Source: Candidatus Aenigmatarchaeota archaeon (lineage in GTDB: Archaea; Aenigmatarchaeota; Aenigmatarchaeia; CG10238-14). Taken from it: a stretch of DNA of 48,928 bases. Shown here one piece after another: positions 24,716 through 48,843 of this stretch; within the stretch, counting starts at the first letter, position 1, and each line of letters opens with the position of its first letter. A program made the translations under genes and the position numbers. The notes under the pieces are model-generated. The model saw only the letters and a program-made list of their open reading frames with translations. It was not told the DNA's origin and did not search any database. The stretch spans positions 1 to 48,928 of the forward strand of contig JAFCCM010000006.1 of assembly GCA_017610225.1 (NCBI GenBank), read 5' to 3'.

Positions 24716-24730
24716 TTAATTTTTTTCCTT

Positions 24731-27574: not shown

Positions 27575-27585
27575 TTTGCCTCCGG

Positions 27586-27623
27586 AAAAATGAGGAGTCC
27601 CAATACTACGAGACTCCTCATTT
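27586..27623 (-). terminator. Internal terminator after the vWA gene
   Basis: On the minus strand AAATGAGGAGTC pairs with GACTCCTCATTT, followed by TTTTCC. It would end or reduce transcription from the upstream part of the operon and implies another promoter or read-through for 27574 onward. Confidence 0.8.
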
Positions 27624-27630
27624 ATTTAAA

Positions 27631-28374
27631 TTAGAACGTTAAGTTTTGACTCGGACCACCAGTGCCCAAATGCTGACTCTGTGCAGAGATGGACTGACTA
27701 ACAAATCCGCCAACTTTTGCAGCTTGTTCAGGAGTCATAGAACCAGCATTTATATACTGATCAAGACCAAGACTGTCAGTAACCTTATTCAGATACTTAT
27801 CAATTTCAGCACTGTAAGGATTTTGAGGATCATTGAAACCAATGATGATAATCTTCACTGATTCAAGGATTTCCTTCATCCGAATATCTTCCAGTTTATC
27901 AAGAATGGTTTGAGGTCCTACTGAGGAACTGTTATCCATACCATCTGTTAGGATGAATATAATTGCATTGGATCCAACATCAACCTGGTCAAGTAATTCA
28001 CCATGTCTTCCAACAGCAGCAACAGCATCAAAGATTGCATCATACAAACATGTAGACCCACCGATACCAGGAGACTCTTTAAATGAATCTTCATCAATAT
28101 CTTTAACAGGTTTAAAACCATGAATTTCTTCAACGTTGGAACCAAATGCAGTAGTTCTCAACATGATTTTATCACCCCTTGGATTAAGCTTACATCCTTT
28201 AACAACCACATTTCTTACCTCACACAATTCTTTCCTACATGAGTTAGTTGAAGGACTTACATCTTCAGCCATGACCACATCTGTATATTCATCTTCCTCA
28301 ACCTTTTCAACATCAACAGTTGAAAATCCAAATGCGGTATTTTCCGGTATTTCAATTTTAATAGGTTCGCTCAT
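27631..28374 (-). CDS. von Willebrand factor A domain protein, TerY-like
   Basis: 247 residues. The MIDAS metal site is visible: DVSPS (D38, S40, S42), GGSTCLYDAIF (Thr) and FILTDGMDN (Asp). The N-terminal 30 residues are an extension. TerY-type vWA proteins work with a kinase and a PP2C phosphatase; those genes follow after a terminator. RBS AAGGAG. The Gly/Gln/Ser tail is probably flexible. Confidence 0.82.
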   Translation of the reverse strand: MSEPIKIEIPENTAFGFSTVDVEKVEEDEYTDVVMAEDVSPSTNSCRKELCEVRNVVVKGCKLNPRGDKIMLRTTAFGSNVEEIHGFKPVKDIDEDSFKESPGIGGSTCLYDAIFDAVAAVGRHGELLDQVDVGSNAIIFILTDGMDNSSSVGPQTILDKLEDIRMKEILESVKIIIIGFNDPQNPYSAEIDKYLNKVTDSLGLDQYINAGSMTPEQAAKVGGFVSQSISAQSQHLGTGGPSQNLTF

Positions 28375-28383
28375 GTTATCTCC

Positions 28384-29187
28384 TTATGCAAGAAATTTGT
28401 CAGAAGTTGTAATGTTGCCGCCAGCCGCTTTAAAGTCATCAAAGAAAGAATCACCCAGATGTTCAAATGTAGCAACATCAGACATGGTGTCTTCAAGGAT
28501 ATAAAGTTTCTGAATGAATACCGGATCAGAAAAATTCGCCATAATATCACGAACCGTATTAGCAACACAATGACTACGCGCCTGACCTGCAATTGCAATG
28601 ATATCAGCATTTTCCAAAGGTTCAATAATACCCTTCTGATTCAAATGCGTTGTGGGATCCTCAGGAACTTCAACCTCAGCTTTAACCGCTGAATAATGTT
28701 CCGTTTTGAAATTGGATCCTTTGGTAATGGGATTATACATTCTATATGTTGCTTTTTCCCAGTCAAGGATTGCTTTCATAATTTCTGGATTAACGTTCCA
28801 TCCAGGAGTGCCAATCAAGCAATGGTATGGCCAAATAACCAGTGGATACCTTTTTCCATCTTCCAGAGATTTTGTATATGTCAAACACCAGTCCAACATA
28901 TTTGGATCAGCGGGAACAATGTTTCCGCTCTTAACATCATTATAGGTAATGAGATCAAATGGATTAACTGCTGACCCATCTGCTTTTCTCCAGAACATTG
29001 GATGGAAAATCTGATACTGGCGATGACTATCAAAAGTAACATAAATTTTATCTATCACTTTACCAAGTCTATCCATCATGGCTGCTGTTCTAATACAATC
29101 TTCAACAGCTCCACTTACAAACAAAGAACCATTTGGATTACAAAAATCTTCTTGGGGATCAATGATCAATAATCTAACGTCTGTCAT
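28384..29187 (-). CDS. pncA: Nicotinamidase (isochorismatase family)
   Basis: 267 residues. The start at 29187 (MTDVRLLIIDPQEDF) is chosen for AAGGAA upstream. D10 in IDPQEDF, the catalytic Lys region around K156, and C207 in GQARSHCVANT form the triad; D53-x-H55, H62 and H122 in WPYHCLIGTPG form the metal site, as in PncA. It is longer than E. coli PncA through insertions at 65-110 and 140-185. It would deamidate nicotinamide to nicotinate, the substrate of PncB. Confidence 0.88.
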   Translation of the reverse strand: MTDVRLLIIDPQEDFCNPNGSLFVSGAVEDCIRTAAMMDRLGKVIDKIYVTFDSHRQYQIFHPMFWRKADGSAVNPFDLITYNDVKSGNIVPADPNMLDWCLTYTKSLEDGKRYPLVIWPYHCLIGTPGWNVNPEIMKAILDWEKATYRMYNPITKGSNFKTEHYSAVKAEVEVPEDPTTHLNQKGIIEPLENADIIAIAGQARSHCVANTVRDIMANFSDPVFIQKLYILEDTMSDVATFEHLGDSFFDDFKAAGGNITTSDKFLA

Positions 29188-29188
29188 T

Positions 29189-29569
29189 TTAATTTCCTTT
29201 CTTTTCAATTAACTTCATTAACTTCTCTCTGTGTGTGTCTGAGTTTAAATTTAAAATCATATCTTCAAATCCACCTCCGCCACATGGCTGACTCACAATC
29301 TTAAAGTCTGTTAAGACATAAAATATAAATGATTGTAAATCAACATTTTTACCGCAATAACTACCAGCATATAACACACCTTCTTTCTTCAAAGTTTGAA
29401 GAGCATCATAAGCTTTAACTTCCGCCTCTTCTTTAATATGATCTATACGCTCACCATGATATACAGCATAATCAGTTAAGAAAATATGAAAGTGTTCCTC
29501 CTGTTCTTTACACCACTTAAAGGTTACCCAGTCAGGGATGTAAAGAACTTTAGCATAAGTGTTACCCAT
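29189..29569 (-). CDS. Protein of unknown function (126 aa)
   Basis: 126 residues with IPDWVTFKWCKEQEEHFH and CGGGGFEDMILNLN segments. It abuts the nicotinamidase start. RBS GGAGG. No family recognised. Confidence 0.6.
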   Translation of the reverse strand: MGNTYAKVLYIPDWVTFKWCKEQEEHFHIFLTDYAVYHGERIDHIKEEAEVKAYDALQTLKKEGVLYAGSYCGKNVDLQSFIFYVLTDFKIVSQPCGGGGFEDMILNLNSDTHREKLMKLIEKKGN

Positions 29570-32900: not shown

Positions 32901-33173
32901 TCAAGTTCTATCATCATGTCCATCGGCATCATTACCATGTCCTTTGTTAGCATCTTGCTCATCATCAGGAGAAGTATCATCATCAAGAGAAGTATCATCA
33001 TTACTAGCATCACTTAAGATTTCCCCAGAAAAAGCTGCATTAATTTTATCAAATATATCTAATGTTCTTGTTCCAAGGAAACTAACTGAACCAATAATAA
33101 CAGCCGATATTAGAGCAATAATAATAGCATATTCTACTGCGGTTGCTCCTGTTTCATTTTTAATAAATTTCAT
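32901..33173 (-). CDS. Flp/Fap-type (type IVb) pilin-like protein
   Basis: 90 residues. A short basic leader ends in Gly9, then ATAVEYAIIIALISAVIIGS: prepilin peptidase would cut after G9, leaving Glu5-Tyr6 of the mature form, the Flp signature, on a single hydrophobic helix. The region to about 50 (LGTRTLDIFDKINAAF) also matches Flp pilins. Residues 55-90 are an unusual Asp-rich tail (DDTSLDDDTSPDDEQD). No prepilin peptidase, ATPase or secretin gene is present, so it would rely on host machinery or act as a decoy or inhibitor. RBS GGAAAA. Confidence 0.85.
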   Translation of the reverse strand: MKFIKNETGATAVEYAIIIALISAVIIGSVSFLGTRTLDIFDKINAAFSGEILSDASNDDTSLDDDTSPDDEQDANKGHGNDADGHDDRT

Positions 33174-36127: not shown

Positions 36128-36937
36128 ATGGGAAACCCAATTCCTACTCAAATTAGAAGTGTTGATCCTTACTCAAGTTATAATTCAGATGTAGTAAATA
36201 AATTAACTCGTATTATATCAGATGGTAATAATACGCTATTAATGCCGTCACCTATATCAGTAGAAAAAACTAGTGATACTGTTATAACTGTTGTAAGCGG
36301 GAAAGCTTTAATGGATGATGTATTAATAGAAATCCAAAATATTAATATTGATTTAACAGATTCAGCTTTCTATGTAGATTCTAGTGGGGGTGTGTGGAAT
36401 GAAATGGGATATTATTATGTAGTATTACATTATGAATATCAAAAAATATCTCCTCCACCAGAAGCATCAATATTAATTATATTACCTTCCCAACGAGCAA
36501 CTATTTATGACTCATCAAAACATTTATTTCTTTCTGTTTTGAATGTTAGTGCCCCAGGCGGAATTGAACAAATAGATGAAGTATTGAATTATGATCCAGA
36601 TAATCCATCTATAGGAAGACGAACTGTTGGTGGGGGTGTAGCAGGTACATCTGTTAATTATTCTGAAGTGGGTAGTGGTGTTTATAATGCTACTACTGAT
36701 GATGATACTATTGCTGTTAATACATCAAGTGGGGATACAATTGTAATACTTCCATTAACCACTACAACAGATCGTATGGTTAGAATAGTTAAACTTACAT
36801 CTGATTCTAATACTGTAACAGTTCAACGACAAGGTAGTGATACTATTGAAGGGGCTGCATCTATATTATTATCAGAACAATATGATGTTGTATCATTAGC
36901 CCCTTATTCATCTAATACTGTTTGGATAGAAGTTTAA
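36128..36937 (+). CDS. Putative virion (collar/fibre-type) protein
   Basis: 269 residues. The start at 36128 (MGNPIPTQI) is chosen for TTGGAGG 6 nt upstream. Almost entirely beta-rich, with repeated Val/Thr/Ser strands, GYYYVVLHYEYQK in the middle, a Gly-rich linker (GGGVAGTS) near residue 180 and a C-terminal beta-helix-like part (DTIAVNTSSGDTIVILPL). Such C-terminal parts are common in phage fibre and appendage proteins. No enzyme motif; structural role inferred from composition and promoter. Confidence 0.6.
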   Translation: MGNPIPTQIRSVDPYSSYNSDVVNKLTRIISDGNNTLLMPSPISVEKTSDTVITVVSGKALMDDVLIEIQNINIDLTDSAFYVDSSGGVWNEMGYYYVVLHYEYQKISPPPEASILIILPSQRATIYDSSKHLFLSVLNVSAPGGIEQIDEVLNYDPDNPSIGRRTVGGGVAGTSVNYSEVGSGVYNATTDDDTIAVNTSSGDTIVILPLTTTTDRMVRIVKLTSDSNTVTVQRQGSDTIEGAASILLSEQYDVVSLAPYSSNTVWIEV

Positions 36938-36948
36938 AGGAGATATTT

Positions 36949-37473
36949 ATGGATTATAAAATAAGAAAAAAAATAGCTAAAGATAAATCCACCACATCTG
37001 TAGGTAATGGTCTTTATAATATAGGTAGTAGTTCTACAGATAGATTTAATGAAATATGGGCTGTTACTTTTCGAGGAGATTCAACTGGTTCATTTTATGG
37101 TGATATTGCAGAACGCTATACTTGTGATCCAGATATTTCATTACCAATAGGAACTTTAATGGAAGTTTCAGATGATGAATTTGATTCAAGAATTTGTGAT
37201 GATACTTTATCAAATTATGTTATTGGGGTTATTTCTGAAAACCCTGGTTATGAAATGAATTTAAAACTTGAAAATGCAGCTGTTATTGGATTAACTGGAA
37301 CATTGCCTATTAGAGTAATTGGACCAGTTAATAAAAAAGATATTTTAATTTCTGCTGGTAATGGTTGTGCAAAAGTATCCGAAGATGAATTTGAAAAAAC
37401 TTTTAAAGTAGCTATTTCATTTGAAACCAATAATGATCCAGGTGAAAAATTAGTTAAATGTTTTATTAAATAA
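36949..37473 (+). CDS. Putative virion appendage protein with GDIAE motif
   Basis: 174 residues; RBS AAGGAG. GDIAERYTCDPDISLPIGTL and VIGVISENPG resemble the domain found in phage tail-fibre/spike C-termini and Peptidase_G2-like tips (GDYAExx ... PGTVV ... VxGVVSxxPG). Residues 110-174 contain GTLPIRVIGPVNKKDIL. It is directly upstream of the radical SAM genes. Its role as a surface protein is inferred from the motif. Confidence 0.65.
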   Translation: MDYKIRKKIAKDKSTTSVGNGLYNIGSSSTDRFNEIWAVTFRGDSTGSFYGDIAERYTCDPDISLPIGTLMEVSDDEFDSRICDDTLSNYVIGVISENPGYEMNLKLENAAVIGLTGTLPIRVIGPVNKKDILISAGNGCAKVSEDEFEKTFKVAISFETNNDPGEKLVKCFIK

Positions 37474-37483
37474 AGGAAAAATT

Positions 37484-38590
37484 ATGTCATTCGAATTTCA
37501 GTTAGTTTTAACCGAGAAGTGTGATTTAGATTGTAAGTATTGTTATATGGAGAAAAATCCTGTTAGTATGACAAAAGAAACATTTGATAAACATTATAAA
37601 ATGCTTCCAAGATTAATGTCATACTATCAAAAGAATGAATATGTAGCAGCTTTATTTGGCGGGGAACCATTATTAAATTGGGAACTTATTGAATATATAA
37701 CTCCAATTTTAAATGCAGATCCAAGATGTAAACATATAATAGCTATGACTAATGGTTTGGCATTAAAAGATAAATATAAAAGAAATTATATTGAACAAAA
37801 TAGAATCTCTCTTTCATTATCTTTTGATGGTTTATGGAATGAAAAAGGAAGACCTTTAAAAAATGGTAAATCAAGTTTAGATCAATATTTGAATGATCCA
37901 TTGCTATCCTACTTTCAAGGTAAAGGTGGTTGTAAAGTAATGGTGTCACCAGATAGTGTTCCAACATTAGTTGAAAATTTTAAATGGTTTGTTGATAAAT
38001 TTAAAATGCCATGTCCTGATTTTTCTTTAGTAAGAGATGATATATGGAAAGAAGAAGATATTGAAATATTTGAAAAAGAAGCTAAAAAATTAACTGATAC
38101 TATGATTGAATATTTTAATAATGGGCAAGCCGTAATGGTTGGATTTTTTCAATTATATATATTAGATCTTTTATTTGGAGAATCATATGGAAAAAGACCT
38201 TTTGGTTGTTTCGCTGGATGTAATGGTGCTGGATTTATGCCTAATGGTAAAGTGTATCCATGCGCTAGATTTGGTAGTAAAAAAATAAAAGCAATTGCAA
38301 ATTCAAACAATGGGATATTATTAAATGATCTAAAAAAAATGAATGATCCTTTTATTACAAATCCAAGATTCTATGAAAAATGTAAAGGTTGTTCATTATA
38401 TAAATATTGTAATGCTGGGTGTACATATCAACAAATGAAAAATGGTTCTGTTTATAAATCTGAGCCTATAGATAGTATATGTAAATTATTACATATATGT
38501 TATGAACAATCAATACGAATAATGAATGAATTAAAAGATAATGATCTTTTTATTCAAATGATTAAAAACTCAATTAAAAATGTAGGTTAA
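37484..38590 (+). CDS. Radical SAM/SPASM enzyme 1
   Basis: 368 residues. CDLDCKYC at 13-20 is the CX3CX2C 4Fe-4S/SAM motif, LFGGEPLLNW the GGE motif, and SLSFDG a later strand. The C-terminal Cys series (GCFAGCNGAG ... YPCARFG ... CKGCSLYKYCNAGC ... C) is a SPASM domain with two auxiliary clusters, as in anSME-type sulfatase maturases and RiPP-modifying enzymes. It probably modifies a Cys, Ser, Thr or Asn side chain in a peptide or protein. The best candidate substrates are the Cys-repeat proteins 4-6 kb downstream. Confidence 0.88.
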   Translation: MSFEFQLVLTEKCDLDCKYCYMEKNPVSMTKETFDKHYKMLPRLMSYYQKNEYVAALFGGEPLLNWELIEYITPILNADPRCKHIIAMTNGLALKDKYKRNYIEQNRISLSLSFDGLWNEKGRPLKNGKSSLDQYLNDPLLSYFQGKGGCKVMVSPDSVPTLVENFKWFVDKFKMPCPDFSLVRDDIWKEEDIEIFEKEAKKLTDTMIEYFNNGQAVMVGFFQLYILDLLFGESYGKRPFGCFAGCNGAGFMPNGKVYPCARFGSKKIKAIANSNNGILLNDLKKMNDPFITNPRFYEKCKGCSLYKYCNAGCTYQQMKNGSVYKSEPIDSICKLLHICYEQSIRIMNELKDNDLFIQMIKNSIKNVG

Positions 38591-38602
38591 AAAGGAGAAA
38601 AA

Positions 38603-39103
38603 ATGAAAAATTTAAGCACAAAAGAAAAAACTATTTTTAAATGTTCAGAAAGTTTATTTAGAATATCACAAGATCTTCTTAATATAAATCCCGATATGTC
38701 AAATACTATTTTATTTTTAAGTGATAGACTTTTAAAAGAAGTTGAACCTAATGAAATAAATGTAGTTGGTGAAATTAAATCTTCAACTGATAGTCAAGAA
38801 ATCTGTCCAGATTGTGGTGGTTTAAAACATCATACATCACATGAAGAAATTTGTCCAGATTGTGGCGGCATTAAAGAACCATTTCAAAATATTATAGATA
38901 AAGAAATTAAAGAAGAATCTAATTATCAAGTTATTGTAGATAAAGAAAATGAATTAGATGCAAGTAAACAATGTCATGGTCATCAAGCAAATGGTTCAAG
39001 CGGAGTAGTTTCTACTAACAAACAACCAGTTGATAATCAAATTACTTCATCTGTAAAAAATGAAGTTAAATCTTTAATAGATGAAATAAGACAAGGTTTA
39101 TAA
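38603..39103 (+). CDS. Protein with duplicated CPDCGG motifs, in radical SAM cluster
   Basis: 166 residues. A helical N-terminus (about 1-50), then EICPDCGGLKHH and EEICPDCGGIKEP, a duplicated CxxCGG unit able to bind metal, then a CHGHQANGSSGV linker and a helical end (KNEVKSLIDEIRQGL). RBS AAGGAGAA; two bases before the next gene. Could be a partner, chaperone or substrate of the radical SAM enzymes; unassigned. Confidence 0.6.
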   Translation: MKNLSTKEKTIFKCSESLFRISQDLLNINPDMSNTILFLSDRLLKEVEPNEINVVGEIKSSTDSQEICPDCGGLKHHTSHEEICPDCGGIKEPFQNIIDKEIKEESNYQVIVDKENELDASKQCHGHQANGSSGVVSTNKQPVDNQITSSVKNEVKSLIDEIRQGL

Positions 39104-39105
39104 AT

Positions 39106-40062
39106 ATGAATGTTAAAAGTGAAAGTATAGATAATTTTTTTAACAATATTAAAACTATGTTTAATAAAACAGATTGTAATGCTAATTCTACTAATTTAAA
39201 AACTAAAGTTGATGATAAAGATGGAAAACAAAGAACTAACGTTATTTATTTAAATACAGATTGCAATCTTCGTTGTGAATATTGTTATGAAGGTAATAGT
39301 AGAAATGGGTTACCTGACCAAGCTAAATGCACTACTAAAGATATTGATATTTTTTTAAATGAAATATGTCAAAGAGAAAATAAATGTGTTTCAACAATAG
39401 TAATAATGGGTGGAGAACCATTTTTAAATTTTGATATGATTGAATATACAATTCTTAAAGCTGCTTCATTATCTAAAAATAAACAAAATGGTTGGGGTAT
39501 TAGTCTTATTAGTAATGGTACTTTATTTACTAATAAGATATTAACTCGTTTCAAAGAAATATTAAATCTAGCATCTAAACACCAGGTTAATGTTTCTTTA
39601 GAAGTTAGTTTTGATGGCAGCGGTCAATACAGAAGAAAATGGCCAGACGGATCTAATAGCAAAAAACAAGTGGAAAAAGGAATTCAAAAATTAATTGATT
39701 TTGAAATTCCTTTTAAACTAAGTTATGTTGTACATTCTGGTAATTATAAAAATATAGTAAAAGATTGTATTTATGTTTTTGAAAAATATCCTTTACCATA
39801 TAATTATAGAATGACTGTCGGTTTTGCATATGAAGATTTGGATTCTGTTCTAGGCCCGAATGGTGCTCACAAATTAAAAAATGAGTTTAAACCTTATGCT
39901 TATTATTTATTTGATTTATATAAAGTACCAATATGCGGTATTACCTGCGGTTATTGTAAAAACTGTAATCAATCAAATTTTGTTGGAAATTCATATTTAT
40001 CACCAACAACTGGAATTTCTTATGATAATAAATTAACTGAACATAGCTTTCAACAGTTTTAG
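39106..40062 (+). CDS. Radical SAM enzyme 2
   Basis: 318 residues. CNLRCEYC at 53-60, MGGEPFLNFDMIEY as the GGE motif and VSLEVSFDGSG further on. The C-terminus has a shortened Cys set (CGITCGYCKNC), so it may hold one auxiliary cluster or a truncated SPASM domain. The 45-residue N-terminal extension is unusual. No strong RBS; starts right after the CPDCGG gene, suggesting coupling. Confidence 0.85.
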   Translation: MNVKSESIDNFFNNIKTMFNKTDCNANSTNLKTKVDDKDGKQRTNVIYLNTDCNLRCEYCYEGNSRNGLPDQAKCTTKDIDIFLNEICQRENKCVSTIVIMGGEPFLNFDMIEYTILKAASLSKNKQNGWGISLISNGTLFTNKILTRFKEILNLASKHQVNVSLEVSFDGSGQYRRKWPDGSNSKKQVEKGIQKLIDFEIPFKLSYVVHSGNYKNIVKDCIYVFEKYPLPYNYRMTVGFAYEDLDSVLGPNGAHKLKNEFKPYAYYLFDLYKVPICGITCGYCKNCNQSNFVGNSYLSPTTGISYDNKLTEHSFQQF

Positions 40063-40075
40063 GAGAATATTGTAA

Positions 40076-41230
40076 ATGAGTGAACAATTAAATTTTAATA
40101 ATGTGAAAATTTTTAGTATAGATTTAACTACAACAGATGATTGTAATTTTAATTGTAGTTACTGTTTTGAACATGGATATTTTAATAAAAATTATTTTAA
40201 TGATTCTGATTTATTTATTAATAAAATTAATGAATTATTAGAATCATTTTTTTTTAAATCTAATTATAATATAATTGGAATAGGATTTTGGGGGGGAGAA
40301 CCAACTTTAAACGAAACTCTCATAAAAACTATAATTGAATATTATTCAAATGATGATAGAGTTAAATTTTTTATTTATAGTAATGGTTCAAACATAGAAC
40401 CATATTTAGAAATTCTTGAGAAATATAAAAAAGATTCAATATGTGGGCATCCTAAATTATGTATTCAGATTTCATATGATGGAATGCCAATTCAAGATAT
40501 ATGTAGAAAAGATAAAAATAATAAATTAACATCTAATTTAGTTAGAGAAAATATTAGAATATTAGGACAAAGAGAAATACCTTATGTTACTAAATCAACA
40601 GTTACATTAGAAACTTTTAAATATTTACCACAAGCTAGAAGAGACATTTTAGATCTAGTTGAAGAATGTAATGGAAAGAATTTTTTTAGAAGTTCTAATT
40701 ATTTTCCAACCATAGATTATTATCATTTAAATGATTATACAAAAGAAGAGATAAACCAATATTATAAAGAATTACATAAAAGTTTAATTGAAATTTCAAA
40801 AGATGAAATAAATTATTATAAAAAATATAATAGATTTTTATTTGCTTGGTTTAATCCAAATAAAGCTTTATGTTGTGCTGGAAGAGATATGATTTGTATT
40901 AATTGGGATGGTAACGTTTTTAAATGTCATGGTTCTGTTTATGAAGATGAATCAGGTGATCATTTTTTATCTAATTTAAAAGATAAAAATTTTATAAATA
41001 CTTTAATAAGTTCCCATCAATTACATAATGAAAATTTTGGTTATATACCAAAACAGTGCCAAAATTGTGTTGCAACATTTTGTTTAAAATGCAATTCAGT
41101 TAAATTTAATGAAAGTAAAAAAGAATCTTATATAGAAAAATGGAGAGACTACACCAATCAGCCAAGATTATGTAAATTTTATAAATTAAATGGAAAAATA
41201 GTTCTAGCAATAAAAGAATTATTAAATTAG
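40076..41230 (+). CDS. Radical SAM/SPASM enzyme 3
   Basis: 384 residues. CNFNCSYC at 23-30, WGGEPTLNE as the GGE motif, QISYDGMP, then the SPASM Cys series (CCAGRDMICINWDGNVFKCHGS ... CQNC ... CLKC) near the C-terminus. Last gene before the Cys-repeat proteins, 17 nt upstream of the first. The CCAGR and FKCHGS segments occur in peptide-modifying members. Confidence 0.87.
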   Translation: MSEQLNFNNVKIFSIDLTTTDDCNFNCSYCFEHGYFNKNYFNDSDLFINKINELLESFFFKSNYNIIGIGFWGGEPTLNETLIKTIIEYYSNDDRVKFFIYSNGSNIEPYLEILEKYKKDSICGHPKLCIQISYDGMPIQDICRKDKNNKLTSNLVRENIRILGQREIPYVTKSTVTLETFKYLPQARRDILDLVEECNGKNFFRSSNYFPTIDYYHLNDYTKEEINQYYKELHKSLIEISKDEINYYKKYNRFLFAWFNPNKALCCAGRDMICINWDGNVFKCHGSVYEDESGDHFLSNLKDKNFINTLISSHQLHNENFGYIPKQCQNCVATFCLKCNSVKFNESKKESYIEKWRDYTNQPRLCKFYKLNGKIVLAIKELLN

Positions 41231-41247
41231 TAACCGGAGGACTAATT

Positions 41248-41967
41248 ATGGCTTGTACGGCTCATGATAATACAACACTTTGTACAGGACATGTAGCAAC
41301 AGCGATTTGTTTAGCTCATTCAATAGGACCTTGTACTACACATGATAATACAACAACTTGTACTGCACACGTTGCTCTTGGAGATGATGCTCTACCAGGA
41401 ACATCAACTACATGGACTGATGATCCATTAACAACTTCTATAAAAATAAAAGAAATACATCATAATGAATTAAGAAATGCTATAGATGCTGAACTAAATA
41501 GAAGATCTATTAGTTGGCCTTCTGATCCTGGTTTAGTTAATATTTCAACAAAAGTTTTAAGCCAACATGTTAGAAAATTAAGAGATGGAATTGATGCTGC
41601 ACAAACATGGTCTTATCCATCTTATATAAATGATTCTAATACTGAAATTGGTGATAGAGTTATTAAAGATCAATATAATGTTCTTAGATCTCAAATTAAT
41701 TCTTGTGAAACTGGTTGTACATGTGATTGTAATTATGGTTGTACATGCCAATGTAATTATGCTTGTACATGCCAATGTAATTATGCTTGTACATGTCAAT
41801 GCAATTATGCCTGTACATGCCAATGCAATTATGCCTGTACATGTCAATGTAATTATGCTTGTACATGCCAATGTAATTATAGTTGTACATGTGATTGTAA
41901 CTATACTTGTACATGTAATTGTGCCTATTCTGATAGAAGATTAAAAACTAAAATAAAATATATGTAA
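41248..41967 (+). CDS. Cys-repeat protein A with SDRRLKTK C-terminus
   Basis: 239 residues. N-terminal 45 residues: CTAHDNTTLCTGH-type Cys/His/Thr units. Middle (about 50-155): a folded domain with HHNELRNAIDAELNRRS and LRDGIDAAQTW. C-terminal (157-228): nine octapeptide units CTCxCNYx. The end is YSDRRLKTKIKYM. SDRRLKTN is the hallmark start of the intramolecular chaperone (S74 peptidase) of phage fibres, but here the protein stops within 13 residues. The repeats could be substrates for radical SAM modification, or form metal or disulfide clusters. Strong RBS CCGGAGG. Confidence 0.8.
   Translation: MACTAHDNTTLCTGHVATAICLAHSIGPCTTHDNTTTCTAHVALGDDALPGTSTTWTDDPLTTSIKIKEIHHNELRNAIDAELNRRSISWPSDPGLVNISTKVLSQHVRKLRDGIDAAQTWSYPSYINDSNTEIGDRVIKDQYNVLRSQINSCETGCTCDCNYGCTCQCNYACTCQCNYACTCQCNYACTCQCNYACTCQCNYACTCQCNYSCTCDCNYTCTCNCAYSDRRLKTKIKYM
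41716..41931 (+). repeat. Tandem 24-bp repeats encoding CTCxCNYx (9 units)
   Basis: Nine 24-nt units with consensus TGTACATGCCAATGTAATTA plus a variable last codon (Gly, Ala, Ser or Thr). Silent differences are few, indicating recent expansion or gene conversion. Confidence 0.9.
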
Positions 41968-41988
41968 AAATAATACGGAGGATTAATT

Positions 41989-42429
41989 ATGGTTTGTATA
42001 AATCATGATAATACAACCATATGTGGAGGACATGTTGCTTCATTTTGTACAACCCATATTGCAGTAACTACTTGTACTACACATGATAATACAACTACTT
42101 GTATTGCACATGATAATACAACTACTTGCATTGCACATGATAATACAACTACTTGTACTGGTCATGTAAATGAAGAATGTGTTTGTAATTGTAATTATGT
42201 TTGTACATGCCAATGTAATTATAGTTGTACATGTGATTGTAATTATGCTTGTACATGCCAATGTAATTATGCTTGTACTTGTCAATGTAATTATAGTTGT
42301 ACATGTGATTGTAACTATACTTGTACATGTAATTGTAATTATGCTTGTACATGTGATTGTAACTATACTTGTACATGTAATTGTGCCTATTCTGATAGAA
42401 GATTAAAAACTAAAATAAAATATATGTAA
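41989..42429 (+). CDS. Cys-repeat protein B, lacking the middle domain
   Basis: 146 residues. N-terminal Cys/His/Thr units are tandem here (CTTHDNTTT, CIAHDNTTT, CIAHDNTTT, CTGH), followed directly by nine CxCxCNYx units and the shared SDRRLKTKIKYM end. The approximately 100-residue domain of proteins A and C is absent, so it is an internally deleted or minimal version. The leader before its RBS (AATACGGAGGA) is nearly identical to that of protein C. Confidence 0.8.
   Translation: MVCINHDNTTICGGHVASFCTTHIAVTTCTTHDNTTTCIAHDNTTTCIAHDNTTTCTGHVNEECVCNCNYVCTCQCNYSCTCDCNYACTCQCNYACTCQCNYSCTCDCNYTCTCNCNYACTCDCNYTCTCNCAYSDRRLKTKIKYM
42178..42393 (+). repeat. Tandem 24-bp repeats encoding CxCxCNYx (9 units)
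   Basis: Nine units; the fourth residue varies among Gln, Asp and Asn. The units are mixed relative to protein A, consistent with recombination among copies. Confidence 0.9.
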
Positions 42430-42450
42430 AAATAATACGGAGGACTAATT

Positions 42451-43374
42451 ATGGCTTGTACAGCTCATACTAATACAACTACATGTGGAGGTCATTCTGC
42501 AACAACTACTTGTACTGCTCATTCTGCAACAACTACTTGTGTACATACAAATACAACTCCATGTGGTAGTCATACAGGTACTATTTGTCCTGCTCATGCT
42601 ACAACAACTACTTGTACAGCACATGCTAATACAACAACTTGTGTGCATACAAACACAACTCCATGTGGTAGTCATGTAAATAGCTGTCCTGCTCATGGTG
42701 GTTATATAGCACCAGTAGCGGCTACTGTTTTTACTGATCCAACTTTGAGTACTAGTATATCTATTAAAGATGATCATCATAATGAGTTAAGAACTGCTAT
42801 TTCTGCTGAATTAACAAGACGAAGTAAATCTTGGCCAACAGATCCAGGTGCTGTATCTACCGCATCTAGTATAGGTTCTCTACATGTTAGAAGATTACGT
42901 GATGGAATAAATGCAGCTAAAGCTTGGGCTTGGCCTACTTATATGTCTGATACTGATACCGGAACTGATGATACTGTTGAAGCTCAACAATATACTGCAA
43001 TGAGAAGTACAATTAATATTTACGAAGCAGAATGTGTTTGTAATTGTAATTATGCTTGTACATGTCAATGTAATTATAGTTGTACATGTCAATGTAATTA
43101 TGCTTGTACATGTCAATGTAATTATGCTTGTACATGTCAATGTAATTATGCTTGTACATGTCAATGTAATTATAGTTGTACATGTCAATGTAATTATACT
43201 TGTACATGTCAATGTAATTATGCTTGTACATGTCAATGTAATTATGCTTGTACATGTAATTGTAATTATTGTACATGTAATTGTAATTATTGTACATGTA
43301 ATTGTAATTATGCTTGTACATGTAATTGTGCCTATTCTGATAGAAGATTAAAAACTAAAATAGAATATATGTAA
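42451..43374 (+). CDS. Cys-repeat protein C (longest copy)
   Basis: 307 residues. An extended N-terminus of Cys/His/Thr units (CGGHSATTT, CTAHSATTT, CVHTNTTP, CGSHTGT) to about residue 85, then the middle domain (HHNELRTAISAELTRRS, LHVRRLRDGINAAKAW), thirteen C-terminal CxCxCNY units (two shortened to seven residues) and SDRRLKTKIEYM. Very rich in Thr and Cys. Together with A and B it forms a tandem paralog set immediately after three radical SAM genes. Virion surface location is suggested by the SDRRLKTK end only. Confidence 0.8.
   Translation: MACTAHTNTTTCGGHSATTTCTAHSATTTCVHTNTTPCGSHTGTICPAHATTTTCTAHANTTTCVHTNTTPCGSHVNSCPAHGGYIAPVAATVFTDPTLSTSISIKDDHHNELRTAISAELTRRSKSWPTDPGAVSTASSIGSLHVRRLRDGINAAKAWAWPTYMSDTDTGTDDTVEAQQYTAMRSTINIYEAECVCNCNYACTCQCNYSCTCQCNYACTCQCNYACTCQCNYACTCQCNYSCTCQCNYTCTCQCNYACTCQCNYACTCNCNYCTCNCNYCTCNCNYACTCNCAYSDRRLKTKIEYM
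43033..43338 (+). repeat. Tandem repeats encoding CTCxCNY(x) (13 units)
   Basis: Eleven 24-nt and two 21-nt units, nearly identical in DNA. The 21-nt units lack the variable eighth codon. Confidence 0.9.
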
Positions 43375-43428: not shown

Positions 43429-44208
43429 GTGAAAAAAATGACTTTAATTTGTGGACCTTGTGTTATTGAAAATGAATTTCTTTTTTATGAAACTGCTAAA
43501 AATATTATAAAAACTGTATTTGAATTTACTGATATAGATTTTTATTTTAAAGCATCTTGTATTAAAGACAATAGAACTAATAATAAAAATTATACTGGTG
43601 TTGGTTTTGAAAAAGGTATAGAAATGCTACTTGATATTAAGTCTCGGTATAGAGTCAATATTACTACTGATTTTCATACTGAGACCCAAATAAAAGAGTA
43701 TGGAAGTAAAGTTGATTTAATTCAAATACCAGCATTTCTATCTATGCAATCTTCTCTTATAAATGAAGTTGTTAAATTAGATAAATCTGTTCATATTAAA
43801 AAACCTCAATTTTTAAGTCCAAATAATATTGGAAAACCCGTATCTAAAATCAAAGACCAAAATTCTAATATTGAAGTTTGGGTAACTGATAGAGGAACTA
43901 TGTTTGGTTATGATGCAGTAATGTTTGATCCTCGCCATATTAGAAAAATGAAAGAATTATATAAAGCTGATAAAATATTAATTGATATTACCCACCCCCA
44001 AAATCATTCAAAAATTTATGATAGAACTTATGCATATGATCTTGGAATATCGGCTATTGTATGTGGTGTTGATGGATTATTTATTGAAAGTCATATAGAT
44101 CCTAATCAAGCTTTATGTGATGGAGATTCCCAGTTATATATAACTCAGTTAAAAAAATATTTACAATCATTTACAGAATTATATGAGTTTATAAATGTTA
44201 AATACTAA
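43429..44208 (+). CDS. kdsA: KDO-8-phosphate synthase
   Basis: 259 residues. ICGPCVIEN at the N-terminus, FKASCIKDNRTNNKNYTGVGFEKG (PEP-binding Lys and loop), TDFHTETQ, IQIPAFLSMQ, and GVDGLFIESHIDPNQALCDG match KdsA of the DAHP synthase superfamily. It condenses arabinose-5-phosphate with PEP. Missing pieces: no arabinose-5-P isomerase (KdsD) or KDO-8-P phosphatase (KdsC) is recognised nearby. Start GTG with GGAG 8 nt upstream; an ATG at 43438 is an alternative. Confidence 0.92.
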   Translation: MKKMTLICGPCVIENEFLFYETAKNIIKTVFEFTDIDFYFKASCIKDNRTNNKNYTGVGFEKGIEMLLDIKSRYRVNITTDFHTETQIKEYGSKVDLIQIPAFLSMQSSLINEVVKLDKSVHIKKPQFLSPNNIGKPVSKIKDQNSNIEVWVTDRGTMFGYDAVMFDPRHIRKMKELYKADKILIDITHPQNHSKIYDRTYAYDLGISAIVCGVDGLFIESHIDPNQALCDGDSQLYITQLKKYLQSFTELYEFINVKY

Positions 44209-45106
44209 TGAAGTAAGAATAGAAACTTGTACTAAATGTTTTTATTCTTGTATTTTTTGTCCTCATTCTACAAAATTTATTAGAAAAAAAGAAATAATGT
44301 CTTATGATAAATTTTGTTTTATTATTAAAAAAATTAATAAAGAATTACCAAATATTACTGATATAACAATATCTGGATTTGGTGAAGCTTTTTTAGATGA
44401 TACTATTTTAGAAAAAATAAAATATGCTAAATCTTTAAATTATAATGTTCATATATTATCAAATGGTTATTATTTATCTTATCCAAAAGTAGATATTTTA
44501 AATGAAATAGGTGTTAATGATATTAGAATTAGTTTACATTCAATTAAATATGAATCTTATAAAAAAATAACAAAAGCCCCATTGTATCAATTTAATCAAG
44601 TTATATGGAATATAGATTATATAATAAAAAAAACTGATATAAATTTAATATTAACATTTGATATTATACTTGGTATTAATGATAATGAAATAGAACAAAT
44701 TAAAAATAAATATAATAATGTTGCCACTATTGAAATATGGAAACCTCATAACTGGGTTGATACTTATAATTTTAGAAAAGGAAATATAATAAAATCAACA
44801 TGTGGAAGACCTTGGAATAGTCCATATCAAATTCAAGTTGACGGAATAGTAAATATGTGTTGTTTTGATTATAATGGAAAATTATTATTGGGTAATTTTT
44901 TAACACAAACAATGAAAGAAATTTTTAGCAAAGATATTTATCTTGATTTAAAGAAACATCATAAAAATGAGACCTTAGATCAAACTAATTATATTTGTAA
45001 AAATTGTGATCAAAGGAAAGATCAAAATAATATTATTATATATAATAATAAATTTAAAAAAGAAGATAGAATAAATAGAACTTCTACTAATTATAAAAAA
45101 ATATGA
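44195..45106 (+). CDS. Radical SAM/SPASM enzyme 4
   Basis: 303 residues. CFYSCIFC at 15-22 is the cluster motif and ISGFGEAFLDD a variant GGE motif. SPASM-type Cys at the end (STCGRPWNSPYQIQVDG, NMCCFDYNG, CKNCDQRK). It differs from the three enzymes upstream and is closer to the twitch/SPASM type often found in sugar and peptide clusters. It overlaps kdsA by 14 nt and the next gene by 4 nt, so it belongs to the KDO operon. Confidence 0.85.
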   Translation: MLNTNEVRIETCTKCFYSCIFCPHSTKFIRKKEIMSYDKFCFIIKKINKELPNITDITISGFGEAFLDDTILEKIKYAKSLNYNVHILSNGYYLSYPKVDILNEIGVNDIRISLHSIKYESYKKITKAPLYQFNQVIWNIDYIIKKTDINLILTFDIILGINDNEIEQIKNKYNNVATIEIWKPHNWVDTYNFRKGNIIKSTCGRPWNSPYQIQVDGIVNMCCFDYNGKLLLGNFLTQTMKEIFSKDIYLDLKKHHKNETLDQTNYICKNCDQRKDQNNIIIYNNKFKKEDRINRTSTNYKKI

Positions 45107-45891
45107 AAACAATAATTCTTATACAAGGAAATATTCATAGTGGAAAAACTATAATATTTAAAATATTAAATAATATAAATATAAATATTTATATGAATTA
45201 TGCATTTTATAATTTTTCTGAAATTTATTTTTTTTTAAAAAATACTTTAAAAATTAAAGATTTAAAAAATATTAATGAGTGTTTAAATTCTATTAGTAAT
45301 TATTTTTATGAATATAATGAAACTTTTAAAAATTATAATATAACTATTGAAAATTTTGATTTTTTTTTTACAAAAGCAAAAAAATATTCTAATATTAAAA
45401 TATTAGCAACTGAATTATATTATTTAAAACATTTTAATATTAAAGACTTAGAAATAAAATATATATTTATATTTAGAGATCCAAGAATAAGCTGGTTATT
45501 AAATGTTCACTTTAAAAAAAATAAAATAAAAATATTTACTGACAAATATAAAAAAGAGTTTAATAATTATTTAAAATTACAAAAAAATAGTAAATTAATT
45601 ATTTTTGAAAGATTTGTTAAAAATTTTCCAAAAACTTTTTATGAAACATTTAATAATATTTTAAATTTACATGATTTAAAATATAATTTAGAACTTCCTT
45701 CTCCAAGATATAATTGTTTTATAAATGAAATAGATTTAAAAGAAATAAAATATCAAATAAATAGAACAGGGATAATAGATGAATTTAAAATCATAGAGAC
45801 TGAATTAAATGATGAAATGAAATTTTTAGGTTATACTTATAAAATTGAAATAAATAAAATTATAGAGGAGAATTATGAAATATCTTATTGA
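45103..45891 (+). CDS. P-loop protein, sulfotransferase-like
   Basis: 262 residues. GNIHSGKT at 9-16 is a phosphate-binding loop, and YIFIFRDPRISWLLNVHF at about 121-138 resembles the 3'-phosphate motif of sulfotransferases (RDPRxxxxS); IIFERFVKNF fits the following EDL-like strand. Extremely AT-rich. Overlaps neighbours by 4 and 17 nt. A nucleotide kinase is the alternative. Confidence 0.55.
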   Translation: MKTIILIQGNIHSGKTIIFKILNNININIYMNYAFYNFSEIYFFLKNTLKIKDLKNINECLNSISNYFYEYNETFKNYNITIENFDFFFTKAKKYSNIKILATELYYLKHFNIKDLEIKYIFIFRDPRISWLLNVHFKKNKIKIFTDKYKKEFNNYLKLQKNSKLIIFERFVKNFPKTFYETFNNILNLHDLKYNLELPSPRYNCFINEIDLKEIKYQINRTGIIDEFKIIETELNDEMKFLGYTYKIEINKIIEENYEISY

Positions 45892-46471
45892 TACGGCAGT
45901 TCAAAGTGAAATTGAAAAATGGAAAAATCATATGGAAGGTGTAACCAGCAATCCATCTTTATTAAAAAAAGCTAATACTTCATCTGGTGATTTTTTTATA
46001 AAAAATAAAAATAATTTTGATAATATTTTTATACAAGTTAGATCTATAGATGAAGTAAAAGAATTTTATAATCATGATAAAATTATATTTAAAGTACCAC
46101 TACTAATAACAAAAGATTTAGATGGTTTTGATTTAATTACAAAATTAAAAAAAGCTGGATATAGAACTTGTGCAACTATAACATATGATCTATTCCAGTT
46201 TGATTATGCTTGTAAAATTGGTAGTGATTATAGTATTGTATTATGTGCTAAAAATACTAATAAAACATTTCTTTCAGATTGTGTATATTTAAAAGAAACA
46301 ATGAAATATAAAACTAAAATTATAGCTGCTAGTTTTAGGTCAATGCCAGATATTCAAGAAGCTATATATGCAGGAGCTGACTTTGCTACTATACCTCCAA
46401 AATATATGGAGGGTTTATTTACTAATCAAGATGCAATTACTGATTATAATAAATTTTATGGAATAGAATAA
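45875..46471 (+). CDS. Transaldolase / fructose-6-phosphate aldolase-like enzyme
   Basis: 198 residues, slightly shorter than TalC/FSA. GVTSNPSLL near residue 26 and IFKVPLLI with the Schiff-base Lys, then TCATITYDLFQFDYACKIGSDY and IIAASFRSMPDIQEAIYAGADFATIP follow the family motifs. It makes or rearranges sugar phosphates by C-C bond transfer. Placed between sulfotransferase-like and kdsB genes, it may supply a sugar precursor rather than serve central metabolism. RBS AGAGGAGA. Confidence 0.82.
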   Translation: MKYLIDTAVQSEIEKWKNHMEGVTSNPSLLKKANTSSGDFFIKNKNNFDNIFIQVRSIDEVKEFYNHDKIIFKVPLLITKDLDGFDLITKLKKAGYRTCATITYDLFQFDYACKIGSDYSIVLCAKNTNKTFLSDCVYLKETMKYKTKIIAASFRSMPDIQEAIYAGADFATIPPKYMEGLFTNQDAITDYNKFYGIE

Positions 46472-47217
46472 TGAAAACTGTGGCGGTAATACCAGCAAGA
46501 TTAAAATCAACTAGGTTTCCAAATAAAATTATTAAAAAATTTAATGGAAAAAGAATAATAGATCATGTTATAAATAATACATTTGAATTAGATTTTATTG
46601 ATGATATAGTAATTGCTACAGATGATAAGAATTTTGGAAAAGAATTAGTTGATGAATATAAATTTCTTAATGGGTATTTTATAAGCGATGCTTGTTGTGG
46701 AACTCATAGAGTATACCAATTTTATAAAGTAGCTTCTAATTATAATTATTATGTATCTATACCATGTGATGAACCGGCAATAATTCCAAAAGAAATAAAT
46801 AAAACATTTTCAAATATAGATAAATTATTCAATAATAAAATTGTAACTTTTTATACTAAATTCTTTTGTAAAGAAGATTTGTTAAGTCCGTTATCATGTA
46901 AAATAGTTTCTACGGATGAAGACTATATGGTTTATAATTCAAGAGCTGTAGTTCCTATTTCAAAAGATGGGACTCATTTTGCATTAAAATATTATAAAAA
47001 ACATTTAGGAATTTTTATATTTCCTAAAAATATGTTTGAATTAAACAATGAAAGATTGTGGTTAGATACAACAAATCTTGAATCATTAGAACAAAATAGA
47101 TTTCTACAAAAAAAAATAAATATTAAATTATATGAAACCAACCATATAGGATTTGGAATTGATGTTCCTTCTCAAATCAAAGAATTAGAAGAAAGGGTTA
47201 AATGTCAAAAACTATAG
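46471..47217 (+). CDS. kdsB: CMP-KDO synthetase
   Basis: 248 residues, the same length as E. coli KdsB. AVIPARLKSTRFPNK (nucleotidyltransferase loop), VIATDDKNF, CCGTHRVYQ, IPCDEPAIIP (metal-binding Asp) and LWLDTTNLESLEQNR match KdsB. It activates KDO or a close relative as CMP-sugar. With KdsA it indicates synthesis of a CMP-activated ulosonic acid. The stop of the aldolase overlaps its ATG (TAATG). No glycosyltransferase is seen in the window. Confidence 0.9.
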   Translation: MKTVAVIPARLKSTRFPNKIIKKFNGKRIIDHVINNTFELDFIDDIVIATDDKNFGKELVDEYKFLNGYFISDACCGTHRVYQFYKVASNYNYYVSIPCDEPAIIPKEINKTFSNIDKLFNNKIVTFYTKFFCKEDLLSPLSCKIVSTDEDYMVYNSRAVVPISKDGTHFALKYYKKHLGIFIFPKNMFELNNERLWLDTTNLESLEQNRFLQKKINIKLYETNHIGFGIDVPSQIKELEERVKCQKL

Positions 47218-48089
47218 GAATAATAGAAAATGTTGATACTGGAAAAAGTTTAATATTACAATATATGCATTTATTAAAATTAAAAAAAAAAATTATTGCT
47301 ATAAATGAAATTGGAAAATATATTAAAAAAAATTTAAAATGCCAAATTTGTTTTAACACACTAAGTAATTTACCATTAAGTTTACTTAATAGTAGTTCAT
47401 TTGGAGAAGAATTATTAAAAAATTATATTTCAAAAAAAAAAAATTATAATAATAAAAAATGTGACCATAAAATTATAAAAGATTTAATTAAAAAATATGG
47501 AATGAATGTTTTAAAAAAACCATTTAATTTTGATATAGATTATAAAAATAAAATTAAATTTTATGAAGATGTTATAATTTTTATAATTAAATCAATAGAT
47601 TATAACTATTTTTGTGATTTTGGAATTATTTGTATAAGAGATATAAGAGTTCAATGGTCAGTAACAGCTATTAATTCCCAAGTTAATCAATATGCTAAAA
47701 ATTTTGATAATCTTATTAAAAACTATAATAAAATTAAAAATAAATCTAAAATTAAAATAATTAAGTTTGAACAATTGATTAATAATCCAAAATATTGTAT
47801 ATTAAATTTATTTGATTATTTAGAGTGTGAACATAAAAAATTTGTAACATCTACTAAACAATATAATGATTGGTTAACTGAAGTAGATTTAAAAAATATA
47901 AAAAAATATAAACATTATGGTAATTCATTAAAACAACATGAATTAGATTTTTTATCAGAATACTTTTATGATTATAATAAACAATTTGGTTATCCAGAAC
48001 GATTATTTATAGAAGATATTTATCCAAAAACTTTAAAAGAAGATATATTTAATTATGAAAATAATAGGATTGCTAACTACAACAGATAG
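47202..48089 (+). CDS. P-loop protein, sulfotransferase-like (tandem copy 1)
   Basis: 295 residues. VDTGKSL at about 11-17 is a degenerate P-loop, GIICIRDIRVQWSV resembles the RDxR ... S motif, and IKFEQLINNPKYCILNLFDYL the family's E ... NP segment. The C-terminal 80 residues (LTEVDLKNIKKYKHYGN ... YPERLFIEDIYPKTL) are closely similar to the next gene. It overlaps kdsB by 16 nt and the next gene by 35 nt. Confidence 0.55.
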   Translation: MSKTIGIIENVDTGKSLILQYMHLLKLKKKIIAINEIGKYIKKNLKCQICFNTLSNLPLSLLNSSSFGEELLKNYISKKKNYNNKKCDHKIIKDLIKKYGMNVLKKPFNFDIDYKNKIKFYEDVIIFIIKSIDYNYFCDFGIICIRDIRVQWSVTAINSQVNQYAKNFDNLIKNYNKIKNKSKIKIIKFEQLINNPKYCILNLFDYLECEHKKFVTSTKQYNDWLTEVDLKNIKKYKHYGNSLKQHELDFLSEYFYDYNKQFGYPERLFIEDIYPKTLKEDIFNYENNRIANYNR

Positions 48090-48843
48090 TGGTAAAAGTT
48101 TGCTACAAGATTATTTTAGAAAAAATTTTAAAAATCAAATATTTGAAAGTACTAATCATGGACCAGGACAAATAACTGATTCTATAAAAAAATTATCTTC
48201 TGATAATTTAAAAGATAAAGATATAGTAATTGATTTAATTTCTAAACATGGGTGTGATACTTTAATGTTTCCATTTGTTCAAGACATGTTTAATAATGAA
48301 TCTATAAAACAAATGTATAAAAATTATATTACTAAAAAAAATAAAATTTTTGTTTTTGTTAGACCTTATGATTTTAATTATTATTGTGATAAAGGAATAT
48401 ATGTTGCAAGAGACATAAGAGCTAGATGGACTGTATCTCAACATAGAGCTTTAGGAGTAAAAGGGTATGGTGATATATTAAAAAATTATTTTAATGATTA
48501 TGATAATATAAAAGATAAATCAAATATATTAGAAGTAGTGTTTGAAAATTTTATAGAAGATCCAATAAAAGGATTAAAAGAAATACAAGATTATTGTGGA
48601 TTAATAAATGAACGAGATTTTGTTCCATCAACTAAAAGATATAATAAATGGTTAACTGAAAAAGATTTAAAAAATATTAGAATATATGTAGAAGATGGAA
48701 ATTTATTAAAACAATCAGATTTAGATTATTTATCTGAAGATTTTTATGATTATAATAAAAGATATAGTTATCCAGAAAGACTTCTTATAAAAGATATATA
48801 TCCAAAAACTTTAATAGAAGATATAAATAGATATTTAACATAA
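48055..48843 (+). CDS. P-loop protein, sulfotransferase-like (tandem copy 2)
   Basis: 262 residues. TTTDSGKSLLQDYF at 8-21 is the P-loop, GIYVARDIRARWTVSQHRA the 3'-phosphate-type motif, and VVFENFIEDPIKGLKEIQDY matches the sulfotransferase EDL-DP segment. A clear tandem duplicate of the preceding gene. A PAPS donor would be needed, and no PAPS synthase is seen here. A nucleoside or sugar kinase cannot be excluded. Confidence 0.58.
   Translation: MKIIGLLTTTDSGKSLLQDYFRKNFKNQIFESTNHGPGQITDSIKKLSSDNLKDKDIVIDLISKHGCDTLMFPFVQDMFNNESIKQMYKNYITKKNKIFVFVRPYDFNYYCDKGIYVARDIRARWTVSQHRALGVKGYGDILKNYFNDYDNIKDKSNILEVVFENFIEDPIKGLKEIQDYCGLINERDFVPSTKRYNKWLTEKDLKNIRIYVEDGNLLKQSDLDYLSEDFYDYNKRYSYPERLLIKDIYPKTLIEDINRYLT

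Follow-up and report, generated by a model that had tools for sequence, protein, structure and literature searches.

What do three radical S-adenosylmethionine (SAM) enzymes do next to three proteins built of tandem cysteine repeats in a phage genome? The question is raised by a 48,928-nucleotide stretch of DNA (contig JAFCCM010000006.1, positions 1 to 48,928 of the forward strand; assembly GCA_017610225.1, deposited as a “Candidatus Aenigmatarchaeota” archaeon), the whole of which is called the window here. The window is a piece of a T4-like phage genome and encodes a Gp23 capsid protein (PF07068, 5.8e-33), a Gp20 portal protein (PF07230, 8.6e-22), and a prohead protease (PF03420, 1.2e-9). 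On its plus strand, at 36128-43374, nine genes are closely packed in the order U1-U2-A-Zn-B-C-R1-R2-R3; the enzymes A, B, and C, a zinc-ribbon-like protein (Zn), and the repeat proteins R1 to R3 make up the cassette in question. Our analysis suggests that A, B, and C probably modify the repeats of a fiber-tip protein, most likely via thioether cross-links.

The genes of the cassette

An earlier note on this DNA had described the cassette as one gene unit, and the open reading frames (ORFs) agree with this description: all are confirmed on one strand (Table 1), with intergenic gaps of 2 to 21 nucleotides and Shine-Dalgarno-like sequences upstream of most starts, that of B being the weak one. 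Its division of the enzymes into two of SPASM type (A and C) and a short one (B) is also borne out by Pfam and NCBIfam matches and Cys alignments. In A and C the Pfam Radical_SAM match lies above the cut-off and the SPASM match below it, while A passes the NCBIfam SPASM model TIGR04085 (39.9 bits; cut-off, 27). Seven Cys residues, in keeping with a ranthipeptide-type SPASM domain with two auxiliary clusters, are invariant in A and in C (C266, C284, C328, C331, C336, C339, and C366 in the latter; 17-row alignments), and their order is that expected of a SPASM domain. B has only four, at its C terminus (C277/C281/C284/C287; 19-row alignment).

In NCBIfam, A, B, and C each match PapB best (NF047865; 126, 66, and 76 bits, respectively), all far below the cut-off of 340, and A likewise falls short of the CXXX-repeat maturase model TIGR04115 (79 bits; cut-off, 350). 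By sequence, the best solved structure for all three is 5wgg (CteB). The AlphaFold model of A (predicted local distance difference test [pLDDT], 85.8) has 5why and 5wgg as its nearest PDB entries (TMq, 0.71-0.73; 20-22% identity), followed by anSME (TMq, 0.68-0.71), with TigE, SkfB, and EpeE as further structural neighbors. Judged from sequence, A, B, and C resemble thioether maturases. The Zn protein contains two CPDCGG motifs, in line with the earlier description, and its zinc-ribbon matches are below the cut-off. By visual inspection, proteins of similar layout lie between A and either B or C at other loci (L055, L057, L058, L061, and L064; L numbers are our labels for loci), and gp020 of Campylobacter phage CP220 is one upstream of A. 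It is a candidate accessory or adaptor protein.

R1 to R3 (146 to 307 amino acids [aa]) carry 9, 9, and 13 units of the form CxCxCx[Y/F], 31 in total. The counts of the earlier note are thus correct, while its unit CTCxCNYx does not hold throughout: the first unit of R2 and R3 begins with CVC, and all three arrays close with CTCNCAY. Likewise, the period is 8 residues in general, with two junctions of 7 residues in R3. Tandem Repeats Finder independently detects 24-bp DNA repeats. Cys1, Cys3, Cys5, and Tyr7 are present in 31/31 window units, Thr2 in 29/31, and Asn6 in 28/31. In a wider set of 286 units from 37 family proteins that we chose, Thr occupies position 2 in 79%, Asn, Asp, or Gln position 4 in 98%, Asn position 6 in 92%, and Tyr position 7 in 92%. 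The three proteins also share two elements that the earlier note had not mentioned, namely, N-terminal C-x-[AG]-H repeats and the tail SDRRLKTKI[KE]YM. In the structure prediction of R1, a three-helix domain is modeled at about residues 51 to 150 (pLDDT, 93-98). R3 has 586 homologs at E ≤ 0.001, and among the 120 of these that were listed, the array is 3 to 24 units long. A tblastn search of phages with R3 gave no match, for which the low-complexity filter is a likely cause.

Linkage of enzymes and repeats

Viral contigs were searched with three degenerate DNA patterns that cover only the repeat and are independent of the enzymes, and 50 contigs were identified. The surroundings of the repeats, and the full length of 25 contigs, were then scanned with enzyme profiles at cut-offs of 140 (A), 85 (B), and 85 (C) bits. 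All three enzymes were found in 41 of the 50 repeat-bearing contigs, part of the set in four, and none in five. The earlier note had held that repeats in many genomes without any radical SAM gene would speak against its proposal; what we found is at least one of the enzymes in 45 of the 50 contigs. The figure of 41 comprises 37 contigs by profile, the L047 contig (with C from L083), and three Campylobacter genomes by tblastn; L053 (B, 94 bits) and L033 (C, 87 bits) are borderline in it. Partial sets occur at L010, L037, L044, and L009, the last of which is cut by the contig end. Among the contigs without A, B, or C, L001 and L052 start inside the array or its gene. They share samples with L006 and L055, and the contigs of these two break off within a repeat gene or shortly after it. 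Near-duplicates are frequent; at 90% identity, the enzymes of the 50 contigs reduce to 19 clusters for A, 20 for B, and 17 for C. Gene orders vary (A-Zn-B-C-R, C-A-x-B-R, R-C-A-B, and A-C-R...B), while the set is kept. In cellular genome contigs, the 8-residue repeat pattern had no match and the 7-residue pattern two. One of these adjoins B and C; the second is on a contig that looks phage-like and carries, besides the repeat gene, C and a gene for a collagen-like fiber.

The linkage is also seen with the enzyme as bait. A pattern search with the A profile in 2.9 million viral contigs yielded 210 relatives, a lower bound because the scan requires a pattern match; the best 80 of the 210 gave 77 loci in 51 clusters (90% identity). 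Repeats were called at ≥10 Cys in 40 residues (≥6 for 23 loci), and the counts are our own. A Cys-repeat protein is encoded in the stretch examined in 43 of the 51 clusters and, in one more, elsewhere in the genome. Of the 77 loci, 52 have a CxCxC-type or related repeat protein, 12 have a second kind, and one (L124) has a different, CxxxC protein; in three, all from Campylobacter phages, the repeat gene is at another place in the genome, and in nine there is none, five of these being cut by the contig end near A. By cluster, the corresponding numbers are 34, 9, 1, 1, and 6. In these counts, L108 (CHSN units) and L130 are assigned to the first kind and L117, with a weak motif, to the second with doubt. 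Cys-rich frames in L097 and L102 to L104 other than their C-P-C-N-C-N-F repeat proteins were attributed to chance and left out. L077 was rejected as a phage without a repeat gene: its Peptidase_S74 strand (see below) follows without an array, but the near-identical L078 has the array, so that a collapsed L077 assembly is likely.

Assemblies seem to break or collapse in the arrays (L006/L001, L055/L052, and L077), and the repeat gene may therefore be underreported in metagenomes. At L124 (5897-7108), a 404-aa ORF with dense CxxxC repeats adjoins the A-like radical SAM gene.

An unrelated radical SAM gene behind the cassette, D, served as a control: a plus-strand repeat protein was found at 1 of 10 D loci, and that one lies on the L001 contig (two short Cys-rich frames on the minus strand, in L140 and L141, were left uncounted). 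Gene D (44195-45106) and the sugar genes behind it were considered as cassette members and rejected, since D relatives occur without A, B, C, and repeats at 9 of 10 loci; at L134 (71% identity to D), D stands alone within 8 kb on each side. The trees of A, B, and C are congruent with each other (r = 0.86-0.93 for 31 loci; 0/2000 permutations).

The enzyme set partly follows the repeat type. At 12 loci, A and C were found on the contig without B; the best B-profile scores there (59-77 bits) were taken as A/C cross-hits, all accepted B proteins scoring ≥160 except that of L053 (94). Ten of the 12 arrays consist of exact 6-residue units with two Cys, and those of L113 and L117 are irregular. The pairing of three Cys with three enzymes and of two Cys with two enzymes is suggestive. 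Misfits are L010/L068 and L037/L061, where units with three Cys occur and B is missing from the contig (lengths, 70 and 27 kb), and L108, which has one-Cys units yet A, B, and C.

The system is wider than one phage and is present in cultured, sequenced phages. In CP220, gp023, gp099, and gp136 are the orthologs of A, B, and C (reciprocal best among 9 of the 11 radical SAM proteins) and also take the top place in the whole CP220 record by tblastn, and the repeat protein gp140/CPT_0180 (with phrog_26958) has six 7-residue CxCxCNY units. The genes lie far apart, the enzymes at 16, 84, and 165 kb and gp140 at 161 kb, and all are kept; gp140 adjoins a gene annotated as RNA ligase and tail fiber attachment catalyst. 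A, B, C, and gp140 each match 15 Campylobacter records in INPHARED (for A, at ≥80% cover), representing the same 11 phages of one lineage. The array has four units in WX1 and six in CP220, CPt10, CP21, IBB_35, and CC_R7. Elsewhere, A matches one fecal record at ≥80% cover and four partially (20 records in all at 1e-5), and C matches one fecal record and 10 Erwinia records. In the latter, the matches are to radical SAM proteins only remotely like C (about 21% identity), encoded by jumbo phages such as Huxley, Machina, and Asesino. The CP220 genome paper noted an intragenic 21-bp repeat in 2010 and, separately, an unusual number of radical SAM genes, presumably boosting host metabolism; the part of that paper available to us does not connect the gp140 repeat with these genes (PMC2853527). 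In CPt10, CP220, and CP21 (L098 to L100), a second Cys-repeat protein, with Cys at about every third residue, is encoded near 15.8-16.9 kb and may be acted on by other radical SAM enzymes of these phages. In Vibrio phage vB_VspM_VS1, an “arylsulfatase regulator” gene adjoins a radical SAM gene, and a “chaperone of endosialidase” is also annotated (PMC10473537); no Vibrio record is among the 20 INPHARED records matched by A at 1e-5.

Peptidase_S74 and the probable position of the repeats

S74 proteins form trimers and undergo autoproteolysis at the S74 serine. The motif SDxRLKxxIxY, which ends R1 to R3, is the first S74 strand. The whole domain (PF13884) is above the cut-off in 8 of 10 repeat proteins scanned with Pfam, which were selected partly for a visible tail, and starts 0 or 1 residue after the last unit; in these S74-bearing relatives the match begins at profile position 1, in the place of the R1 tail. 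Among repeat proteins of the second kind, PF13884 passes in 5 of 9, and a sixth is below the cut-off. In 58 repeat ORFs (repeat-bait loci and CP220, near-duplicates included), the tail after SDxx[LV]K is long in 10 and short in 18, the motif being absent from 30, and among the 120 listed R3 homologs it is ≤16 aa from SD in 92 and long in one.

In eight loci (Table 1), the rest of S74 was found with our own S74 profile as a separate ORF of 92 to 109 aa. PF13884 is above the cut-off in all eight, from profile position 14-20, and the ORF lies directly downstream of the repeat gene in seven; in L074 it is beside the enzymes. Because these separate bodies exist, the short SD tail looks like the retained part of a split chaperone and not like decay, and the split raises the question of how a fiber trimer would be templated in trans. 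As S74 directly follows the repeats in relatives, R1 to R3 would be placed at the fiber tip. The cassette proteins are thus similar to S74 fibers and endosialidases (PF13884) in that S74 comes after the repeats in one clade and is a separate gene in others; they differ in that the domain often ends after its first strand and is preceded by a Cys-repeat array.

Proposed mechanism and competing explanations

In the mechanism that we propose, R1 to R3 would be distal-end parts of the tail fibers or spikes of a T4-like phage, their arrays forming a narrow beta-strand ladder at the fiber tip. A, B, and C would act on the repeat units in the infected cell, before or during folding, the substrate being presented by the three-helix domain before the array and perhaps also by the Zn protein; a leader role of the modeled R1 domain is possible. 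A Cys sulfur would be linked by a thioether to a neighboring residue (Asn/Asp/Gln at position 4, Asn6, or Tyr7), thereby stapling the tip. Peptidase_S74, in cis or from a separate gene, would then template trimerization and leave the repeats at the very end. An enzyme-substrate relation between A, B, and C and the repeats is likely in our view, and thioether stapling of the array is put forward tentatively. It is favored because the enzymes resemble PapB and 5wgg, PapB links Cys to Asp/Glu, and position 4 is N/D/Q. Still more tentative is the version in which one enzyme serves each Cys of the unit (three for CxCxCNY, two for the 6-residue CxCNxD) before trimerization templated by an S74 chaperone that in many cases is divided between two genes; if true, it would explain three of the eleven CP220 radical SAM genes.

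Known systems share parts of this scheme. Radical SAM peptide maturation has so far been known mainly from small peptides and a few enzymes, and the SCIFF/CteB substrate is a Cys-rich small cellular peptide. This six-Cys thioether system (5wgg, 5why) provides the nearest solved structure of A by sequence, although 5wgg has about 95 more residues before the matched core than A. Phage tail parts may be stabilized by metal, as in HxH fibers, and we know of no dedicated enzymes for metal- or disulfide-stabilized tails, whereas three radical SAM enzymes occur here. What such tails, including that of phage Milano (PMC10811340), have in common with our proposal is covalent or metal reinforcement of tail parts. 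The PapA/PapB ranthipeptide system resembles the cassette in combining a radical SAM/SPASM enzyme with a substrate of repeated Cys motifs, and PapB forms Cys-to-Asp/Glu links (PMC9413430); however, its units are CX3D, in contrast to the CxCxC units, three enzymes, and phage-protein substrate with an S74 strand in the window.

The same enzymes might act on the same substrate by another chemistry, through epimerization, desaturation, C-C bonds, or other changes, leaving the thiols free for a metal or Fe-S cluster along the fiber axis. This alternative, which we find doubtful, is a variant of the proposed modification, and the confidences in the two overlap. The CxCxC spacing would place all Cys on one strand face, the neighbors of A (anSME, TigE, SkfB, and EpeE) are not all known as thioether enzymes, and B is not of full SPASM type. 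On the other hand, PapB and 5wgg, the best sequence matches of all three enzymes, are both thioether maturases, and the prevalence of N/D/Q at position 4 fits Cys-to-Asx/Glx links. Another view is that the repeats are unmodified and the tip is held by disulfides or metal, with A, B, and C serving host metabolism or another product. It accords with the opinion of the CP220 authors (PMC2853527), with the disulfide-rich contractile tail of phage Milano (PMC10811340), and with the large number of radical SAM genes that such phages carry (CP220 has 11), but appears unlikely given that three enzyme families co-occur with the repeats in both search directions and in rearranged orders, whereas the unrelated gene D does not.

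As the earlier note pointed out, the layout also resembles that of a gene cluster for ribosomally synthesized and posttranslationally modified peptides (RiPPs), and the N-terminal part could be a leader, so that R1 to R3 might be precursors of secreted or released peptides (bacteriocin or signal) and not virion parts. We consider this very unlikely: S74 comes right after the repeats in relatives, a fiber-type gene precedes the cassette, arrays reach 24 units, and among the scanned proteins of the run there is no match to an exporter or leader peptidase, only the G2 chaperone type in U2. Least probable of all is that these are tail-region genes co-inherited without a common function. Linked genes would yield congruent trees anyway, and many loci are near-duplicates; yet the order is shuffled, the genes are dispersed in CP220 and all retained, and repeat type and enzyme set vary partly in concert.

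Several observations weigh against modification of a fiber-tip protein by A, B, and C. (i) Our S74 profile found no S74 body in the window, and 27 of the 120 listed R3 homologs have no SD motif. The strand ladder of the R1 array is modeled with low confidence (Table 1), and Foldseek with the R1 model returned nothing at E ≤ 0.001. (ii) Base differences over all pairs of the 31 window units number 680 at codon position 3, 425 at position 1, and 142 at position 2, but nonsynonymous codon differences (425) exceed synonymous ones (311), mostly at unit position 4, and there is thus no strong sign of selection. (iii) PapB is presumed to require a leader and a RiPP recognition element (PMC9413430); no leader was identified, and in A the CX3CX2C motif already stands at residues 13 to 20, leaving no room for such an element before the core. 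(iv) L063, L094, and L131 have A without repeats, explained neither by a contig end nor by a collapsed assembly, and L002 (43.8 kb) and L028/L030 (contigs of 22.7 and 16.1 kb that share one protein cluster) have repeats without A, B, or C and are true gaps as far as the fragments reach. (v) The suggestion of the earlier note that the substrates are possibly on the virion gains from the S74 domains attached to the repeats of relatives but not from CP220, where the 11 published virion bands do not include the repeat protein (PMC2853527).

To our knowledge, no comparable system, with a radical SAM set beside fiber-tip-like Cys-repeat proteins in large T4-like phages, is known; the kind of enzyme is familiar, the phage fiber tip as a kind of substrate is not, and we know of no earlier radical-SAM-modified virion part. 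In a search of the open-license PMC literature (subscription papers and preprint servers being outside its scope), none of the titles and abstract openings retrieved described radical SAM enzymes acting on phage fibers. If our proposal is true, radical SAM maturation also shapes virus particles, acting on proteins with up to 24 units, and phage radical SAM genes that have been filed under host metabolism would find a direct explanation. The cultured phages would then be a test bed, and the series of repeat types found in nature, which the enzyme sets match in part, would offer a readout of specificity.

Table 1. Features of the cassette and its surroundings, with loci at which S74 is split
Feature	Position or loci	Strand	Basis or remark
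Enzyme A, radical SAM/SPASM	37484..38590	+	Pfam PF04055, 3.3e-8
Zn-ribbon-like CPDCGG protein with CHGH motif	38603..39103	+	ORF; weak zinc-ribbon matches
Enzyme B, short radical SAM, one auxiliary 4-Cys motif	39106..40062	+	PF04055, 2.3e-14
Enzyme C, radical SAM/SPASM	40076..41230	+	PF04055, 8.6e-11
R1: N-terminal C/H repeats, three-helix domain, 9 CxCxCxY units, SDRRLK tail	41248..41967	+	
R1 array, 9 units	41716..41928	+	Short regular strands in model, pLDDT 54-67
R1 tail SDRRLKTKIKYM	41929..41964	+	Matches first strand of Peptidase_S74
R2: 9 units (42178-42390), no three-helix domain, 146 aa	41989..42429	+	
R3: 13 units (43033-43335), three-helix region as in R1, SDRRLK tail	42451..43374	+	
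U1, fiber/tail-like protein upstream of cassette	36128..36937	+	Function from position only
U2, Peptidase_G2-like intramolecular-chaperone domain	36949..37473	+	Weak Pfam and PHROG matches
S74 split after first strand	L035, L010, L009/L011, L039, L107, L037, L132, L074		

Two candidate fiber-type genes precede the cassette. The start of U1 was shifted to an ATG behind GGAGG; the protein has no match in the Pfam scan and has homologs at the same place in L006 (60% identity) and L007 (71% identity). U2 matches Pfam Peptidase_G2 below the cut-off (1.5e-4; 21.7 bits, cut-off 25) and PHROG tail fiber at 2.8e-5, and a domain of its type forms the C terminus of fiber-like ORFs of 560 and 860 aa in L010 and L011. 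U2 may be a weakly matched self-cleaving chaperone of another type than S74.

Behind the cassette, at 43429-48843, a sugar-acid gene run encodes a DAHP/KDO8P-type synthase, radical SAM protein D, a transaldolase, a cytidylyltransferase, and three P-loop ORFs of sulfotransferase-like appearance, as judged from Pfam matches below the cut-off for two and by eye for the third; the run perhaps serves virion decoration. On the minus strand, a 90-aa ORF (32901-33173) without a PHROG match at 1e-3 resembles an Flp-type pilin. Also on the minus strand, at 22078-29208, translations that we read as NAD synthetase-, nicotinate phosphoribosyltransferase-, and nicotinamidase-like adjoin others that are presumably kinase-like, PP2C-like, and VWA-like.

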